A model generated the notes under the pieces. The model was not told the DNA's origin and searched no databases. It saw only the letters and a program-made list of their open reading frames with translations. From Brevundimonas sp. NIBR10 (GTDB taxonomy: Bacteria; Pseudomonadota; Alphaproteobacteria; Caulobacterales; Caulobacteraceae), in contig NZ_CP115464.1 in NCBI RefSeq assembly GCF_027912515.1, forward strand, positions 2,976,001 through 3,040,000: a DNA stretch of 64,000 nucleotides, written 5' to 3'. The position numbers were made by a program, and so were the translations under genes. Shown in pieces: positions 13,524 to 19,306 of this stretch (the stretch's first letter is position 1; every line of letters starts with the position of its first letter).

Positions 13524-13859
13524 TCAGGCCGGAACCGGCTGGGGCGGCGCGATCAGGATGCGGCCGTCCTCGACCCTGACCAGGATCGTCGGCGTGCAGC
13601 CGCTGTCCGGACCCTGGGCCAGACCCGTGGCCAGGGCGATGTTCCAGTTGTGCAGGGGGCAGGCGACGCTGTGGCCATGGACGATCCCCTGGCTCAGCGG
13701 GCCACCCTTGTGTGGGCACCGGTTGATCAGGGCGAAGACGGCGTCGTCGCCGGCGCGGAACACGGCGATCTCGTCACCACCCTCGACGACGACGGTGCGG
13801 GCCCCGCGCGGGGGAATGTCCTCGATCCGCCCCACGTCGATCCAGCGATCGGCGGTCAT
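13524..13859 (-). CDS. nirD: Nitrite reductase small subunit (Rieske-like)
   Basis: The 111-aa partner of NirB in NADH-dependent nitrite reduction. The Rieske-type fold shows CPHKGGPL and ACPLHNW. Both C-x-H and C-x2-H cluster-ligand patterns are present, so unlike NirD proteins that have lost the cluster this one could bind [2Fe-2S]. The ATG at 13859 shares a base with the nirB stop (TGATG), and a one-base gap separates it from nasA, indicating tight translational coupling. Confidence 0.94.
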   Translation of the reverse strand: MTADRWIDVGRIEDIPPRGARTVVVEGGDEIAVFRAGDDAVFALINRCPHKGGPLSQGIVHGHSVACPLHNWNIALATGLAQGPDSGCTPTILVRVEDGRILIAPPQPVPA

Positions 13860-16348
13860 CACGCGGTCTCCATCAGGCTGAGCGGTTGATGCTGCTCGCT
13901 CTCGGCACCCTTGGCCCGCGCCGCCCAGGGGTCGTCCTGACAGAAGGTCTGGGAGTGCAGGAACCGGGCGGCCAGGGCGTCCCGGCCCTCCGCGTCCTCG
14001 ACGATCCGCGCCTTGATCCGCTCCAGCCCGACCCGCTCGATCCAGGGCGCGGTGCGCTCCAGATAGCGGGCCTCTTCGCGATACAGCTGGATGAAGGCGG
14101 CGCAGTAGTGCATCGCCTCGGCCTCCGTCTCGACCTTGCACAACAGGTCGGTGACCCGGACATGGATGCCGCCGTTTCCGCCGACGTGGAGCTCGTAGCC
14201 GCTGTCGACGCAGATGACGCCGAAGTCCTTGATGGTCGCCTCAGCGCAGTTCCTCGGACAACCCGAGACCGCGATCTTGAACTTGTGCGGCATCCATGAG
14301 CCCCACGTCATCCGCTCGGTCTGGATGCCCAGGCCGGTCGAGTCCTGGGTCCCGAACCGGCACCAGTCGGACCCGACGCAGGTCTTCACCGTCCTCAACG
14401 ACTTGCCATAGGCGTGACCGGACACCATCCCCGCCGCGTTCAGGTCGGCCCAGACGGCGGGCAGATCCTGTTTCTTGATGCCGAAGATATCCAGTCTCTG
14501 ACCGCCCGTGACCTTGACCAGGGGGGCGTCGTATTTTTCGACGACGTCCGCGATGGCGCGCAGCTCGCGCGGATTGGTAACCCCGCCCCACATGCGCGGC
14601 ACGACCGAGTATGTGCCGTCCTTCTGGATATTGGCGTGCATCCGCTCGTTGACGAACCGGCTCTGCTGGTCGTCGACATATTCCCCCGGCAGGGCGCACA
14701 GCAGATAGTAGTTCAGCGCAGGTCGGCATGATGAACAGCCGTCGGGCGTGGACCAGTGCAGCTTCTGCATCACCTCGGGGATGGAGCGCATGCCTTGCGC
14801 CACGATCTCGCGGCGCACGTCGTCGTGACCGAAGCTGGTGCATTTGCACATCGTCTTCACAGCGCGCTCGCCGCCGTAGTCGTCGCCCAGGGTCAGGGCC
14901 AGCAGGTTCTCGACGACGTTGGTGCAGGATCCGCACGACGCCGACGCCTTGCAAGACCCTCGCACCGCGTCCAGCGTCACCGCTCCGCCGCCGATACAGG
15001 CGACCACCTTGCCCTTGGACACGCCGTTGCAGCCACAGATCTCGGCGTTGTCCGAGAGGGCCGCAACGGCTGCCTTAGGGTCCGTCTGCCCCCCTCCAAG
15101 GGCGAAAGCCTGACCGAAGATCAGCATGTCCCGGACGGTTGAGATGTCCTCTCCCCGCTTCATCAGGTCGAAATACCAGCCGCCGTCGCCGGTATCGCCG
15201 TACAGGACCGCGCCCACGATCCGGTCATCCCTGACGATGACCCGCTTGTAGACACCGCGCGAGGCGTCCCGCAGCACGATGTCCTGGGCCCCCTGCCCGC
15301 CCGAGAAGTCACCGGCGGAAAAGACGTCGATGCCCGACACCTTGAGCTTGGTCGAGGTGACCGAGCCGCGATAGCCGGTGTGCCGCTCGGTCAGGCCGTC
15401 GGCGAGGGCCCGGCACATGTCCCACAGCGGCGCGACCAGGCCGTAGACCTGCCCGTCGTGCTCGACACACTCACCGACCGCCAGGATTGCCGGGTCCGAT
15501 GTGACCATGTGGTCGTCGACATGGATGCCGCGCCCGACCGCCAGCCCGGCCTCCTTCGCCAGCCAGACGCAGGGCCGGATGCCGACGGCCATGACCACCA
15601 GGGACGCCGGGATCAGCCGTCCGTCCTTCAGGCGCACGCCCTCGACGCAGGTCTCGCCGACGATCTCGGCGGTGTCGGCACCGGTCAGTATGGTCTGGCC
15701 CCGTGCCTCCAGCGCCGACTTGAGCAGCCAGCCCGCCGCTTCGTCGAGCTGGCGCTCCATCAGGGTGGGCATCAGGTGGATGACGGTGACCTTCATGCCG
15801 CGCAGCGACAGACCGTGCGCCGCCTCGAGCCCCAGCAAGCCTCCGCCGATAACCACGGCCTCGCCGCCGGCGTCGGCCGCCGCGATCATCCGGCTGACGT
15901 CCGCCATGTCGCGAAAGCTGATGACGCCGTCGAGCGTATGCCCCGGCACCGGTATGATGAAGGGATCGGACCCCGTGGCGATCAGCAGACGATCGTAACC
16001 GACCACCCGACCCGACCGCGCCGTCACCGTCTTGGCCCCGCGATCGATGGCCTCGACGGGGTCCGAGAGGATCAGGTCGACGGCATTGTCGTCGTACCAG
16101 GCGCGGTCGTTGATCACGATCTGATCGAAGGTCTTCTCGCCCGCCAGAACCGGCGACAGCATGATCCGGTTGTAGTGCACATGGGGCTCGGCCCCGAAGA
16201 TCGTCACCCGGTAGCGCCCGGCGTCTCGCGCGATCAGTTCCTCGACCGCCCGGCACCCGGCCATGCCATTGCCGATGACGACCAGGTGTTCGCGGGCTTC
16301 CAGCGGAGTGACCGCCGGGCGCTCCATGATCTTCGCGAAACCGTCCAT
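13859..16348 (-). CDS. nirB: NADH-dependent assimilatory nitrite reductase, large subunit
   Basis: NirB (829 aa) reduces nitrite to ammonium. Order of domains: FAD/NAD-binding pyridine nucleotide reductase (HLVVIGNGMAG at 21-31; AVVIGGGLLGLEAA at about 165), two BFD-like [2Fe-2S] modules (CGCNGVSKGKV ... SCGSCTNVV and CKCTSFGHDDV ... GCSSCRPAL), a ferredoxin-like half-domain, and the siroheme/[4Fe-4S] centre (TCVGSDWCRFG and SGCPRNCAEA). Size and order match the family. The start lies only 17 bases beyond the T tract of a leader terminator, so expression depends on antitermination (see the leader features). Confidence 0.96.
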   Translation of the reverse strand: MDGFAKIMERPAVTPLEAREHLVVIGNGMAGCRAVEELIARDAGRYRVTIFGAEPHVHYNRIMLSPVLAGEKTFDQIVINDRAWYDDNAVDLILSDPVEAIDRGAKTVTARSGRVVGYDRLLIATGSDPFIIPVPGHTLDGVISFRDMADVSRMIAAADAGGEAVVIGGGLLGLEAAHGLSLRGMKVTVIHLMPTLMERQLDEAAGWLLKSALEARGQTILTGADTAEIVGETCVEGVRLKDGRLIPASLVVMAVGIRPCVWLAKEAGLAVGRGIHVDDHMVTSDPAILAVGECVEHDGQVYGLVAPLWDMCRALADGLTERHTGYRGSVTSTKLKVSGIDVFSAGDFSGGQGAQDIVLRDASRGVYKRVIVRDDRIVGAVLYGDTGDGGWYFDLMKRGEDISTVRDMLIFGQAFALGGGQTDPKAAVAALSDNAEICGCNGVSKGKVVACIGGGAVTLDAVRGSCKASASCGSCTNVVENLLALTLGDDYGGERAVKTMCKCTSFGHDDVRREIVAQGMRSIPEVMQKLHWSTPDGCSSCRPALNYYLLCALPGEYVDDQQSRFVNERMHANIQKDGTYSVVPRMWGGVTNPRELRAIADVVEKYDAPLVKVTGGQRLDIFGIKKQDLPAVWADLNAAGMVSGHAYGKSLRTVKTCVGSDWCRFGTQDSTGLGIQTERMTWGSWMPHKFKIAVSGCPRNCAEATIKDFGVICVDSGYELHVGGNGGIHVRVTDLLCKVETEAEAMHYCAAFIQLYREEARYLERTAPWIERVGLERIKARIVEDAEGRDALAARFLHSQTFCQDDPWAARAKGAESEQHQPLSLMETA

Positions 16349-16365
16349 GACGAGGCCCCAGAACG

Positions 16366-16416
16366 AAAAAAGCCGCCATGCGGACGCTGGTTTCCCAGCG
16401 GCTGCATGGCGGCTTT
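16366..16416 (-). terminator. Attenuator terminator in the nirB leader
   Basis: On the minus strand the arms GCCGCCATGC (16413-16404) and GCATGGCGGC (16381-16372) pair perfectly and are followed by six T residues (16371-16366). AAA on the 5' side can extend the stem. The loop carries a second hairpin, CGCTGG-GAAA-CCAGCG (16385-16400), with a GNRA tetraloop. It is a textbook intrinsic terminator placed just before the nirB start and oriented to stop nirB transcription. Confidence 0.88.
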
Positions 16417-16505
16417 GCCAAAATCGACCGGATCGACCCTACGGCGGGCGACCCGGAATATCGCGAGGCATCCTTGCCTCAAGCCTTGAAAGTGACTCGT
16501 TTCAC
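16407..16505 (-). promoter_or_regulatory. ANTAR (NasT) target hairpins in the nirB leader
   Basis: Three minus-strand hairpins have six-base loops with A at position 1 and G at position 4, the signature of ANTAR-protein RNA targets. They are GTGA-AACGAG-TCAC (16505-16492), GAGGC-AAGGAT-GCCTC (16480-16465) and TGGC-AAAGCC-GCCA (16420-16407). The 3' arm and loop of the last are part of the terminator's 5' arm, so the two structures exclude each other. Binding of NasT should stabilise the hexaloop hairpins and allow readthrough into nirB-nirD-nasA-cobA-mobA. The structures are seen in sequence; the mechanism is inferred from known NasR/NasT systems. Confidence 0.72.
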
Positions 16506-16547
16506 CCCTTGCGGCAAGGGGTCATTTTGCGATGCAGCAAACGGCGT

Positions 16548-17684
16548 TCAGCTGTGAACGGATCGCTGGCCCTGTACATAGTCGGCGATCCGGGCGGTAT
16601 CGAAATTCCGATCGTCGAAGAAGCCCTGAACGGCCCCCGCCTGGGCCCGATCCGGCAGAGATCGGTGATACAGGTCCGGCCGAAACACAGCCGCCGCAGC
16701 GGCCTGCGCCACGTCTGACGGCTCGACCACGCCCCAGCGTACGAACTGGGAATAGATCCACAGGCCGTGATCCGGCGACGGGGCGTTGGCGGCCTCGCGA
16801 TGCAGCATCAGGAAGTCCGGATCGATCGTCGGGGCCTCGCCCTGGCCGAGCACGATCCGCCCCGACAGAGCCGGCAAAATCAGCTCCGCCGGTTGGTTCA
16901 CATAGGTCGGAGCCGCCAGCATCGCGGCCAGAGCCCCATGGTTCTCGGACGCATCGCACCAGGCGGCCGACCGGTCCAGCGCGCCCAGCAGGGCATCCAG
17001 CGTGTCGGGATTGGCCTCGGCCCAATCTTTCCGCGTCGCCAGAACCTTTTCCACACCCCGCCGCCACAGTCGCGATCCGAACGCCGCGATCTGGCCGAGG
17101 CCTTCGGACACCGCGACACTGCTCCAGGGCTCGCCCGCCATGAAGCCGTCGATCTCTCCGGTCCGCAGGGCCTCGACCATCAGCGACGGCGGCAGGACCC
17201 TCAGAACCAGGTCCCGGTCGGGATCGATCCCTGCGAACCCCAGCCAGTATCTCAGCATCAGGGCATGGGTCGAGAACCGGTGGACCACGCCGATGATCGG
17301 CTTTCTGCGGTGCATTCCTATAGCCGAGGCGAAGTCGTGGGCGGTCGCGATCGGGTCCTGAACCCGGTTGGCCAGCACGGGGTCCAGCGCCTGGGCGAAC
17401 TCGGCCGACAGGGTCAGGGCGTTGCCGTTCAGATTCAGCCGGAACGGCGCGACCAGCGGCGCGGGCTGCTGGCTCAGGCCCAGGGTCACGGCCACCGCCA
17501 GCGGGGCCAGCATATGGGCCCCCTGCACCTGACCATAGACCAGCCGGTCCCGCACCGTGGCCCACGAGGTGCTGCGCACCAGGGTCAGGTCCAGTCCGGC
17601 CTCGGCGGCGAAGCCCAGTTCCTTGGCCGCCACCAGAACGGCGCTGTCGGTCAGGGGAAGGAAGGCGATGGAGATCGGGGTCAT
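16548..17684 (-). CDS. nasS: NasS-type cytosolic nitrate sensor
   Basis: The 378-aa protein resembles the periplasmic nitrate-binding protein NrtA (shared PIS.AFLPLTD.A... start, ...GQVQGAHMLAPL, NLNGNALTLS, GVVHRFSTHALMLRYWL, ...GFMAGEPWSS) but has no signal peptide or lipobox. It begins directly at the binding domain, as expected for NasS, the cytoplasmic nitrate sensor that holds NasT inactive when nitrate is absent. Its ATG overlaps the nasT stop (ATGA), as is typical of co-folding partners. The nirB leader begins immediately after its stop. Confidence 0.9.
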   Translation of the reverse strand: MTPISIAFLPLTDSAVLVAAKELGFAAEAGLDLTLVRSTSWATVRDRLVYGQVQGAHMLAPLAVAVTLGLSQQPAPLVAPFRLNLNGNALTLSAEFAQALDPVLANRVQDPIATAHDFASAIGMHRRKPIIGVVHRFSTHALMLRYWLGFAGIDPDRDLVLRVLPPSLMVEALRTGEIDGFMAGEPWSSVAVSEGLGQIAAFGSRLWRRGVEKVLATRKDWAEANPDTLDALLGALDRSAAWCDASENHGALAAMLAAPTYVNQPAELILPALSGRIVLGQGEAPTIDPDFLMLHREAANAPSPDHGLWIYSQFVRWGVVEPSDVAQAAAAAVFRPDLYHRSLPDRAQAGAVQGFFDDRNFDTARIADYVQGQRSVHS

Positions 17685-18274
17685 CGGCCGGTTCCCTTGG
17701 GAGGATCGAGAAGCGCGTGGGCGGTGATAAGGGCCTCGGCCACCTCCACGATCCGGCGGCTCTGGTTCATGGCGGTGGAGCGCAACAGGGCGTGGGCCTC
17801 GGGCTCGGACAGGCCCCGGCTCTGCATCAGTATGGTCTTGGCCTTTTCCAGCGTCTTGCGGTCGGCCAGGGCGGTGATCGCGTCGTCGCGCTCGACCCGC
17901 AAGGCATTGAAGGCGTTGAAGCGGCGGATGGCCAGTTCCAGGATCGGTTTGACCCGCTCCTTCCTCAGACCATCCACGACATAGGCCGAGACCCCCGCAT
18001 CGATCGCCGCGCCGATCATGGCGTCGTCGGATCGGTCGACGAACATGGCGATGGGTCGGGCCAGGGCACGGCTGACGGTCAGCATTTCCTCCAGCGCATC
18101 GCGGCTCGGGTCGCCCAGGTCCATCAGCACGATGTCCGGGGCCATCCGCTCCAGCCGCGCGACGAAGCCGCCGTGCGGCGCCACGACCTCGATATCGGTA
18201 TAGCCCGCCTCGGCCAGTCCCTCTTTCAGGATGGTGGCCCGCAGCCCGCTGTCATCGACGATGGCGATACGCAA
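17681..18274 (-). CDS. nasT: NasT-type ANTAR response regulator (transcription antiterminator)
   Basis: A 197-aa protein with an N-terminal receiver-like domain (IAIVDDSGLRATILKEGL; Asp in VLMDLGDPSRD) and a C-terminal ANTAR RNA-binding domain (about 130-190: LADRKTLEKAKTILMQSRGLSEPEAHALLRSTAMNQSRRIVEVAEAL). NasT binds leader RNA and prevents termination when freed from NasS. The only plausible start is TTG at 18274, with GGGGA about 9 bases upstream. It lies in the same reading frame as cysG, 21 bases past its stop. Likely targets are the nirB and nrtA leaders of this same locus. Confidence 0.92.
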   Translation of the reverse strand: MRIAIVDDSGLRATILKEGLAEAGYTDIEVVAPHGGFVARLERMAPDIVLMDLGDPSRDALEEMLTVSRALARPIAMFVDRSDDAMIGAAIDAGVSAYVVDGLRKERVKPILELAIRRFNAFNALRVERDDAITALADRKTLEKAKTILMQSRGLSEPEAHALLRSTAMNQSRRIVEVAEALITAHALLDPPKGTGR

Positions 18275-18295
18275 TTCTGTTAGTCCCCGGCGAGA

Positions 18296-19306
18296 CTAAG
18301 CCTTGCCGATCGGGCGAAGTCTAGGCACGGCGGGCCCAGGGACGACCGGGACGGCGAACGCGGCGATCCCTGTTGCATCCAGAGCATCACGCTCGCGCTG
18401 GGCTCGCTCCGAAACATCGGGATCGCCGGCGTACAGACGCACGACCCGTTCACCATGATCGAGATGCCCGGCAATCAGTTCGAAAACCTGCCCCGCCGTC
18501 ATCGCCTCGACATCGCGGCGCGGCGCATCCCGCCTGGCCCTCGCCAGCACCTCGGCCGGAACCTCGCCGTCGTGCAGGATCACGTCCGCGTCCTGCATGA
18601 TCCGCAGCGCCTTCAGGGTCAGCAGCTCGGGATCGCCCGAGCCCGATCCCAGCAGGTGGACCACGCCAGCCTCGGGGGCAGCCGCGTCCAGCAGGCGGAT
18701 CATCTCGTCATGCGCCGCCTCGATCCGCCCTTCGGCGACCAGGTCGGCCGCCGCGCCGCGGAAGGCCCGCTCCCAGAACCGCCGCCGCGACATGAAGTCG
18801 GGCACGCTGGTCTTGACCCGATCCCGGATCCGCCCCGCCAGGGTCGCCAGCGGCCCGAGCGCAGCGGGCAATACCGCCTCGATCCGGGACCGAACATCGC
18901 GCGCCAGGATCGGTGCGGCCCCGCCGGTGGCGATGCCGATCACGACCGAGTCACGGTCGATCAGGGCCGGGGTCTGGAAGTCGCTGAGCGCGGGGCGATC
19001 GACGACGTTGACCTGAGCCCCCATATCGCGGGCCAGCCCTGCGATGGACACCGCCTGCGCCTCGTCGTCCAGCGCCAGAAAGACCAGACGCGCCCCGGCC
19101 AGATCTTCACGCGTCGGCGGACGAGTGATCGGGTCGGGCCCGCCTGCGGGTCTGCGGTCCCGGTCCGGCGCACCGTCGGGCGTGAACCAGACCAGCTCGG
19201 CAGGCGAGTCGACGAACAGCCTCAGCTTGGCCAGCGCCGCCTCGCCGCCGCCGACCACGATCACCCGCTCGTCCTCCAGCGGGATACCGGCCAGGAAGAC
19301 ACGCAT
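18296..19306 (-). CDS. cysG: CysG-like siroheme synthase with truncated methyltransferase domain
   Basis: The 336-aa protein starts with the precorrin-2 dehydrogenase/ferrochelatase module (MRVFLAGIPLEDERVIVVGGGEAALAKLRLF, then GLARDMGAQVNVVDRPALSDFQTPALIDRDSVVIGIATGGAAPILARDVRSRIE). From about residue 215 a SUMT-like domain begins (HLLGSGSGDPELLTLKALRIMQDADVILHDGE) but stops after about 120 residues and lacks the second lobe. Full CysG is about 457 aa. The first module should finish siroheme synthesis, with the separate cobA providing methylation. The start at 19306 follows GGGG-rich sequence; further upstream Mets overlap the porin gene. Confidence 0.88.
   Translation of the reverse strand: MRVFLAGIPLEDERVIVVGGGEAALAKLRLFVDSPAELVWFTPDGAPDRDRRPAGGPDPITRPPTREDLAGARLVFLALDDEAQAVSIAGLARDMGAQVNVVDRPALSDFQTPALIDRDSVVIGIATGGAAPILARDVRSRIEAVLPAALGPLATLAGRIRDRVKTSVPDFMSRRRFWERAFRGAAADLVAEGRIEAAHDEMIRLLDAAAPEAGVVHLLGSGSGDPELLTLKALRIMQDADVILHDGEVPAEVLARARRDAPRRDVEAMTAGQVFELIAGHLDHGERVVRLYAGDPDVSERAQRERDALDATGIAAFAVPVVPGPAVPRLRPIGKA

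Follow-up and report, generated by a model that had tools for sequence, protein, structure and literature searches.

A conserved three-hexaloop leader before nirB of Brevundimonas sp. NIBR10, a candidate NasS/NasT antitermination switch

Antitermination of nirBD by NasT is already known: it is reportedly described within the nirBD operon of Pseudomonas aeruginosa by Romeo et al. in 2012. The P. aeruginosa leader is like the one described here in joining NasT to antitermination within the nirBD operon, and we know of no mention of a third hexaloop in it. In Paracoccus denitrificans, according to the accessible parts of the sources, NasS and NasT dissociate on nitrate, NasT binds the nasA leader and free NasT is reported as a higher oligomer (PMC3795266); two hairpins of this leader, HI and HII, were studied and lie 46 bp apart (PMC5424462, PMC3795266), whereas the Brevundimonas leader has three. 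The eut leaders of Enterococcus faecalis, from whose regulator EutV the two-hexaloop rule derives, show in the available passages G4 hexaloops, a second hexaloop within the terminator and short linkers of 5-12 nt, as here, but they have two hexaloops with A1 in both and are controlled by phosphorylation instead of NasS (PMC3369931, PMC8934654). A curation of actinobacterial ANTAR-target leaders allowed linkers of 2-25 nt. The nasF leader of Klebsiella shares with the present one the nitrate response and hexaloops with a terminal C:G pair, which is also selected in NasR SELEX, but NasR is a one-component regulator and two hairpins suffice for its full binding (PMC7496416, as far as the accessible text goes). 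Views differ on how the two hexaloops serve an ANTAR dimer, both together (Ramesh 2012) or successively (Walshe 2022). In the literature covered, mainly open-access main texts, no three-hexaloop ANTAR leader was found; the supplementary alignments of Ramesh could hold unnoticed cases.

The window, the whole stretch of 64,000 nucleotides analysed, is part of a single 4.0-Mb contig. Its minus strand shows the order nasT, nasS, leader, nirB and nirD, so that nasT and nasS are immediately upstream of the leader on the same strand, as had been read from the sequence. The nasT gene (17681-18274) encodes a REC-ANTAR antiterminator by Pfam (ANTAR 1.4e-17, Response_reg 2.3e-8) and contains the only ANTAR match of the whole genome. 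Its best solved-structure match is 6wsh, titled 'Response regulator', which we take to be EutV. The ANTAR domain shows a histidine at the position of a tyrosine of this EutV-like chain, presumably Tyr164 on the RNA face; the histidine is found in five of six Brevundimonas rows, and the sixth and all 13 sphingomonad rows have tyrosine. The nasS gene (16548-17684) encodes a protein of the NMT1_2 (NrtA-like) family (2.1e-66), a putative nitrate/nitrite sensor judging by gene position and relatives. The first gene after the switch is nirB (13859-16348; Pfam NIR_SIR, Pyr_redox_2 and Fer2_BFD), with its ATG at 16348. It is followed by nirD (13524-13859), taken from the ORF list and sequence reading, whose ATG overlaps the end of nirB and whose relatives were found by tblastn with a slightly longer query frame (13524-13889).

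An intrinsic terminator is located on the minus strand between nasS and nirB (16366-16416; -36.7 kcal/mol alone), and its pairs are kept in relatives. The outer arms, 16416-16404 and 16381-16369, form a 13-bp stem, and a 6-bp inner stem (16400-16395/16390-16385) carries a GAAA loop. The six T residues (16371-16366) and the end 17 nt before the nirB ATG agree with the sequence-only reading; the stem is strong, and the word 'perfect' used there does not hold, since a 3x3 internal loop interrupts it. A simple scan for terminators over 16000-18400 gave one hit, at another place and strand, with 0.7 expected; it missed this terminator, probably on account of the internal loop.

Upstream of the terminator, the leader contains three hexaloop hairpins in series, all on the minus strand. 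The first, hexA (16464-16481), is TGAGGC-AAGGAT-GCCTCG, with A1 and G4; it shows covariation in relatives and lies within a covariance-model match. The second, hexB (16428-16456), reads CCGGGTCGCCC-GCCGTA-GGG-T-CGATCCGG, with G1 and G4; it appears in both the minimum free energy (MFE) and the centroid fold, and a covariance model built without Brevundimonas aligns it as the second hexaloop. The third, hexC (16407-16420), is the candidate antiterminator hairpin TGGC-AAAGCC-GCCA, present in leaders L002-L007; its outer pairs are kept in relatives. As had been noticed from the letters, hexC overlaps the 5' arm of the terminator (16420-16407 against 16416-16404). The linkers are 7 nt between hexA and hexB (16463-16457) and 7 nt between hexB and hexC (16427-16421); in the free MFE fold the base of hexB is longer and the linkers are shorter than 7 nt. 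Directly from hexA to hexC the distance is 43 nt, outside the short-linker range. The pair of 6-nt loops with A1 and G4 typical of ANTAR-target leaders is provided by hexA (AAGGAT) and hexC (AAAGCC); the window has three hexaloops instead of exactly two, and we take two as the usual number and not as a defining one. An extra long hairpin lies between hexB and hexC in L005 and in sphingomonad nirB leaders such as L038, L052 and L060, and by eye also in L004 and L006; it is absent in the window and in L003.

The 199-nt leader folds better than 200 of 200 shuffles (z -5.0). The hexC hairpin alone reaches -5.2 kcal/mol, and the whole leader -69.4 kcal/mol when folded freely and -52.0 kcal/mol with hexC enforced, which puts the terminator fold ahead by 17 kcal/mol. 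In partial RNAs ending at 16407, 16400 and 16385, the inner pairs of hexC have a probability of about 0.9, and only 0.13-0.16 in the one with its 3' end at 16391. Since the terminator fold is favoured at equilibrium, OFF would be the default state and ON would need a protein that traps hexC. No Rfam family matched the window at its gathering score, and 16300-16700 gave two matches at chance level.

The sequence-only reading had also counted three hexaloops where two are usual, naming AACGAG, AAGGAT and AAAGCC. All three strings are present and the number stands, with a different membership: hexB had been missed, and AACGAG (16501-16496) is probably promoter DNA, to judge from its position and its relatives. 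It sits between a TTGC (16517-16514) and the -10 position (16494-16489) of a putative leader promoter at 16489-16517, minus strand; the -10 is a poor match and no sigma-70 consensus was found in a scan of this region, and the promoter is therefore placed by position only. Of the sphingomonad nasS-leader rows inspected, taken from every third locus, all 22 have TTGC at a distance of 41-43 nt upstream of the hexA loop, and the window has it at 42 nt. At the corresponding place, several rows of the nirB type have a CTTGAG separated from a TATGGT by 17-18 nt. The AACGAG loop was rejected as an RNA hexaloop. That NasT binds AACGAG and AAGGAT as its pair, or that AACGAG, AAGGAT and AAAGCC are all used, is very improbable: AACGAG has A1 and G4, a stem of seven pairs in the window, L003 and L004, and a distance of 26 nt to the AAGGAT loop, and RNA reading through from nasTS would include it, but the stem is weak in L005 (three pairs) and broken in L006 and L007 (two pairs each), the motif is missing in L008, the seventh Brevundimonas leader, and the closing pair is A-T. 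Its place, moreover, corresponds to the spacer in a promoter-like element that is conserved, and the covariance-model match begins at 16489 and leaves AACGAG uncovered. A palindrome, CCCCTTGCCGCAAGGGG (16505-16521), spans the region of the putative promoter; a T-rich tail follows it on the plus strand, where it was listed as terminator-like. It could be an operator, and its exact form is not kept in relatives.

The comparison set contains nasTS loci, mostly of sphingomonads. Of 80 loci, 74 gave a leader; those of L019 and L021 were set by hand, and loop sizes were counted in 77 leaders, which include near-copies. The loci compared show three hexaloop hairpins in series, with hexC in the 5' arm of the terminator. 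Many of these clusters have a pair of such leaders, one following nasS and the other preceding nirB, and the window leader resembles the nirB type, with which it shares TGGC-AAAGCC-GCCA. One relative (L008 / L022) is rearranged: nasS, the leader and a gene read as nirD follow each other, and nirB is on the opposite strand. Two alignments were made. The nirB-type alignment (A3) has 35 rows from 56 sequences, after removal of 17 of other layout, in most cases one with an additional spacer hairpin, and of the close copies L049, L056, L083 and L086. The nasS-type alignment (A2) has 64 of 69 references, without L028, L030, L031 and L093 (other layout) and L090; L019-L022, L094, L005 and the duplicates L056 and L083 had been dropped before. 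A2 shifts the hexB of the window by five columns, and for this reason the window is excluded from the loop and closing-pair counts and was placed by the covariance model, while the pair counts of A2 include its row.

The stems of hexA and hexB covary in both alignments, the check that the sequence-only reading had put forward for the leader hairpins. Over hexA, hexB and hexC, A3 shows 94.9% of cells paired and 47 both-side changes against 15.7 in shuffles, and A2 shows 96.6% and 49 against 12.7. The hexC stem is nearly invariant within a type and differs between types and groups: TGGC/GCCA, CAGC/GCTG, GGAC/GTCC and GAGC/GCTC. The A1, the G4 and the inner stem pairs of hexC belonged to the search itself, so their invariance proves nothing; its outer pairs, which the search did not use, are kept in 35/35 and 64/64 rows, though the 5' arm of hexC lies outside the terminator.

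A covariance model, R1, was built from A3 only, that is, from 35 sphingomonad nirB leaders and no Brevundimonas. Its match to the window spans 16489-16366 and scores 66.3 bits (E 6e-15). Searched against the whole genome, R1 has its best match in the nirB leader (E 1.5e-13), and the next place, apart from the overlapping opposite strand, has E 0.15. Further matches, of E 9e-15 to 4e-8, are found in L003-L006 and L008, and weaker ones in leaders of other families: L172 (35.7 bits, E 3.5e-7), L151 (2.9e-4) and L103 (4.8e-4). The middle hairpin of L172 was read as a 5-nt loop, so a match of R1 alone is no proof of a third hexaloop. A sample of 199 genomes from a sphingomonad family gave 20 with an R1 match at E 1e-4. 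These make up 20 of the 22 genomes whose NasT match has at least 67% identity, a proportion that is partly circular because some of those species are probably in the training set; none of the 48 genomes with NasT at 61% identity or less and none of the 129 without a NasT match were hit, the two tallies apparently covering the same 199 genomes. In a sample of the class, three of 385 genomes matched, that of the window included. Covariation, the R1 match and this co-occurrence with a NasT subgroup argue for the NasT-type antitermination leader before nirB proposed by the sequence-only reading. By a rival explanation, the terminator only ends the nasTS transcript, NasT is uninvolved and the loops are there by chance. 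The terminator does stand directly behind nasS, but covarying hexA and hexB, a leader that accompanies a NasT subgroup and outer hexC pairs kept although the 5' arm of hexC lies outside the terminator stem make this explanation extremely unlikely.

Before hexC, the 77 leaders contain 145 hairpins with a 6-nt loop against 27.5 in shuffles, and 18-51 against 28-49 for the other sizes. Among all leaders found by script, A1/G4 loops number 243 (9.4 in shuffles) and G1/G4 loops 84 (11.6). A1/A4 loops are also in excess (34 against 3.6), which we tentatively ascribe to hexA being read one base out of register. Upstream of hexC, two or more purine-1/G4 hexaloops, thus three or more hexaloops in total, are found in 101 of 122 sphingomonad leaders, which are related, often two per locus, and include a few probably false terminators, and in 17 of 62 leaders of a mixed set that includes some sphingomonad-like leaders of family f8, such as L135; the figure for shuffles is about 0.3%. 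A leader entered this count only with one purine-1/G4 hexaloop at most 70 nt before hexC, so that the test lies in the second upstream loop alone. The script-picked leaders with at least two upstream loops are four of four in Brevundimonas and three of six in other Caulobacteraceae; L004, L006 and L007 were not picked by the script and were read directly. Entry to A3 required at least one upstream purine-1/G4 loop and entry to A2 did not. G4 is found in hexA in 35/35 rows of A3 and 62/63 of A2 without the window, and in hexB in 35/35 and 63/63. Position 1 of hexA is A in 26 and G in nine rows of A3, and A in 22, G in 40 and C in one row of A2; in hexB it is A in 19 and G in 16, and A in 59 and G in four, respectively. 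Position 1 is thus nearly always a purine, and the G1 of hexB in the window is within the natural range. A C-G pair closes hexB in 35/35 and 63/63 rows and hexA in 35/35 and 60/63. Four sphingomonad leaders that A2 does not include (L028, L030, L031 and L093) show no clean hexB hexaloop and would be exceptions for hexB. Six leaders of family f15, perhaps Rhodobacteraceae (L167, L168, L170, L172, L173 and L176), have a hairpin between P1 and hexC, which lie 47-63 nt apart; its loop size differs as read, L170 and L173 can form a G1/G4 hexaloop, and a third site in these leaders is possible. Outside the class, L180 and L204 show three-hexaloop leaders, in L180 for example before nirB, a hint that arrays arose more than once.

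The leader is, in our judgement, probably a nitrate-responsive NasS/NasT antitermination switch with three hexaloop hairpins in series. The three-hairpin set is conserved, hexA and hexB covary and keep G4, and hexC overlaps the terminator; binding by NasT, control by nitrate, readthrough and the succession of steps are modelled on NasT, NasR and EutV. Without nitrate, NasS would hold NasT, and the nascent RNA upstream of nirB would fold into the terminator. Nitrate or nitrite would release NasT, which would load on the earlier-made hexA and hexB and then catch hexC when this hairpin emerges from the polymerase. As the 5' arm of the terminator is taken up by hexC, the capture of hexC would let transcription continue into nirBD and the downstream gene for a molybdopterin oxidoreductase (nitrate reductase). 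The two 7-nt linkers fit the range of 5-12 nt and the 43 nt from hexA to hexC are too far, which favours loading on hexA and hexB and transfer to hexC. We tentatively propose such a relay, at somewhat less than an even chance: the two upstream hexaloops, with a purine at position 1 and G4, would load NasT, perhaps as a higher oligomer, and hand it to the third.

In an ordinary dual-hexaloop switch, NasT would use hexA (or hexB) together with hexC, and the other hairpin would be a distance spacer. The G1 of hexB in the window, the four sphingomonad leaders without a clean hexB hexaloop and the f15 hairpin between P1 and hexC, which varies in loop size or letters as read, are consistent with such a spacer, as are the 46 bp between HI and HII of Paracoccus nasA (PMC5424462) and the full binding of NasR with two hairpins (PMC7496416), both from the accessible parts of these papers. 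Yet the sphingomonad hexB keeps a 6-nt loop, G4 and C-G closing in 98/98 aligned rows, which a mere spacer need not do, and L005 and some sphingomonad nirB leaders have a separate further hairpin between hexB and hexC. The dual switch is accordingly judged unlikely.

NasS of the window type is found in seven of 131 genomes of the genus (at least 71% identity, that of the window included); it is 66% identical to NasS of Sphingomonas oleivorans and, among the matches listed, at most 47% identical to that of family members outside Brevundimonas. A NasT tree with 91 rows joins all six from Brevundimonas in one clade (100/97), within a supported set that contains 12 sphingomonad and six survey rows (100/99). 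The 27 rows of other Caulobacteraceae stand apart from this set; the tree carries a warning of long branches that link L179 with the other Caulobacteraceae. The nearest join, of Brevundimonas with S. oleivorans (94/93), is not starred. Regulator and RNA target have probably moved together. The nasTS-nir block (13859-18274) is patchy in the genus and its NasT is nested with those of sphingomonads; it looks acquired from them.

Leaders of this kind can be misread by searches that demand two loops exactly, each with A1. A natural array of three evenly linked hexaloops with G4 and C-G closing makes it testable whether an ANTAR dimer uses its hexaloops together or successively. If the relay from hexA and hexB to hexC is true, the length of the array would set how sensitive or how fast the response to nitrate is, and the dual hexaloop would be a single member of a series.
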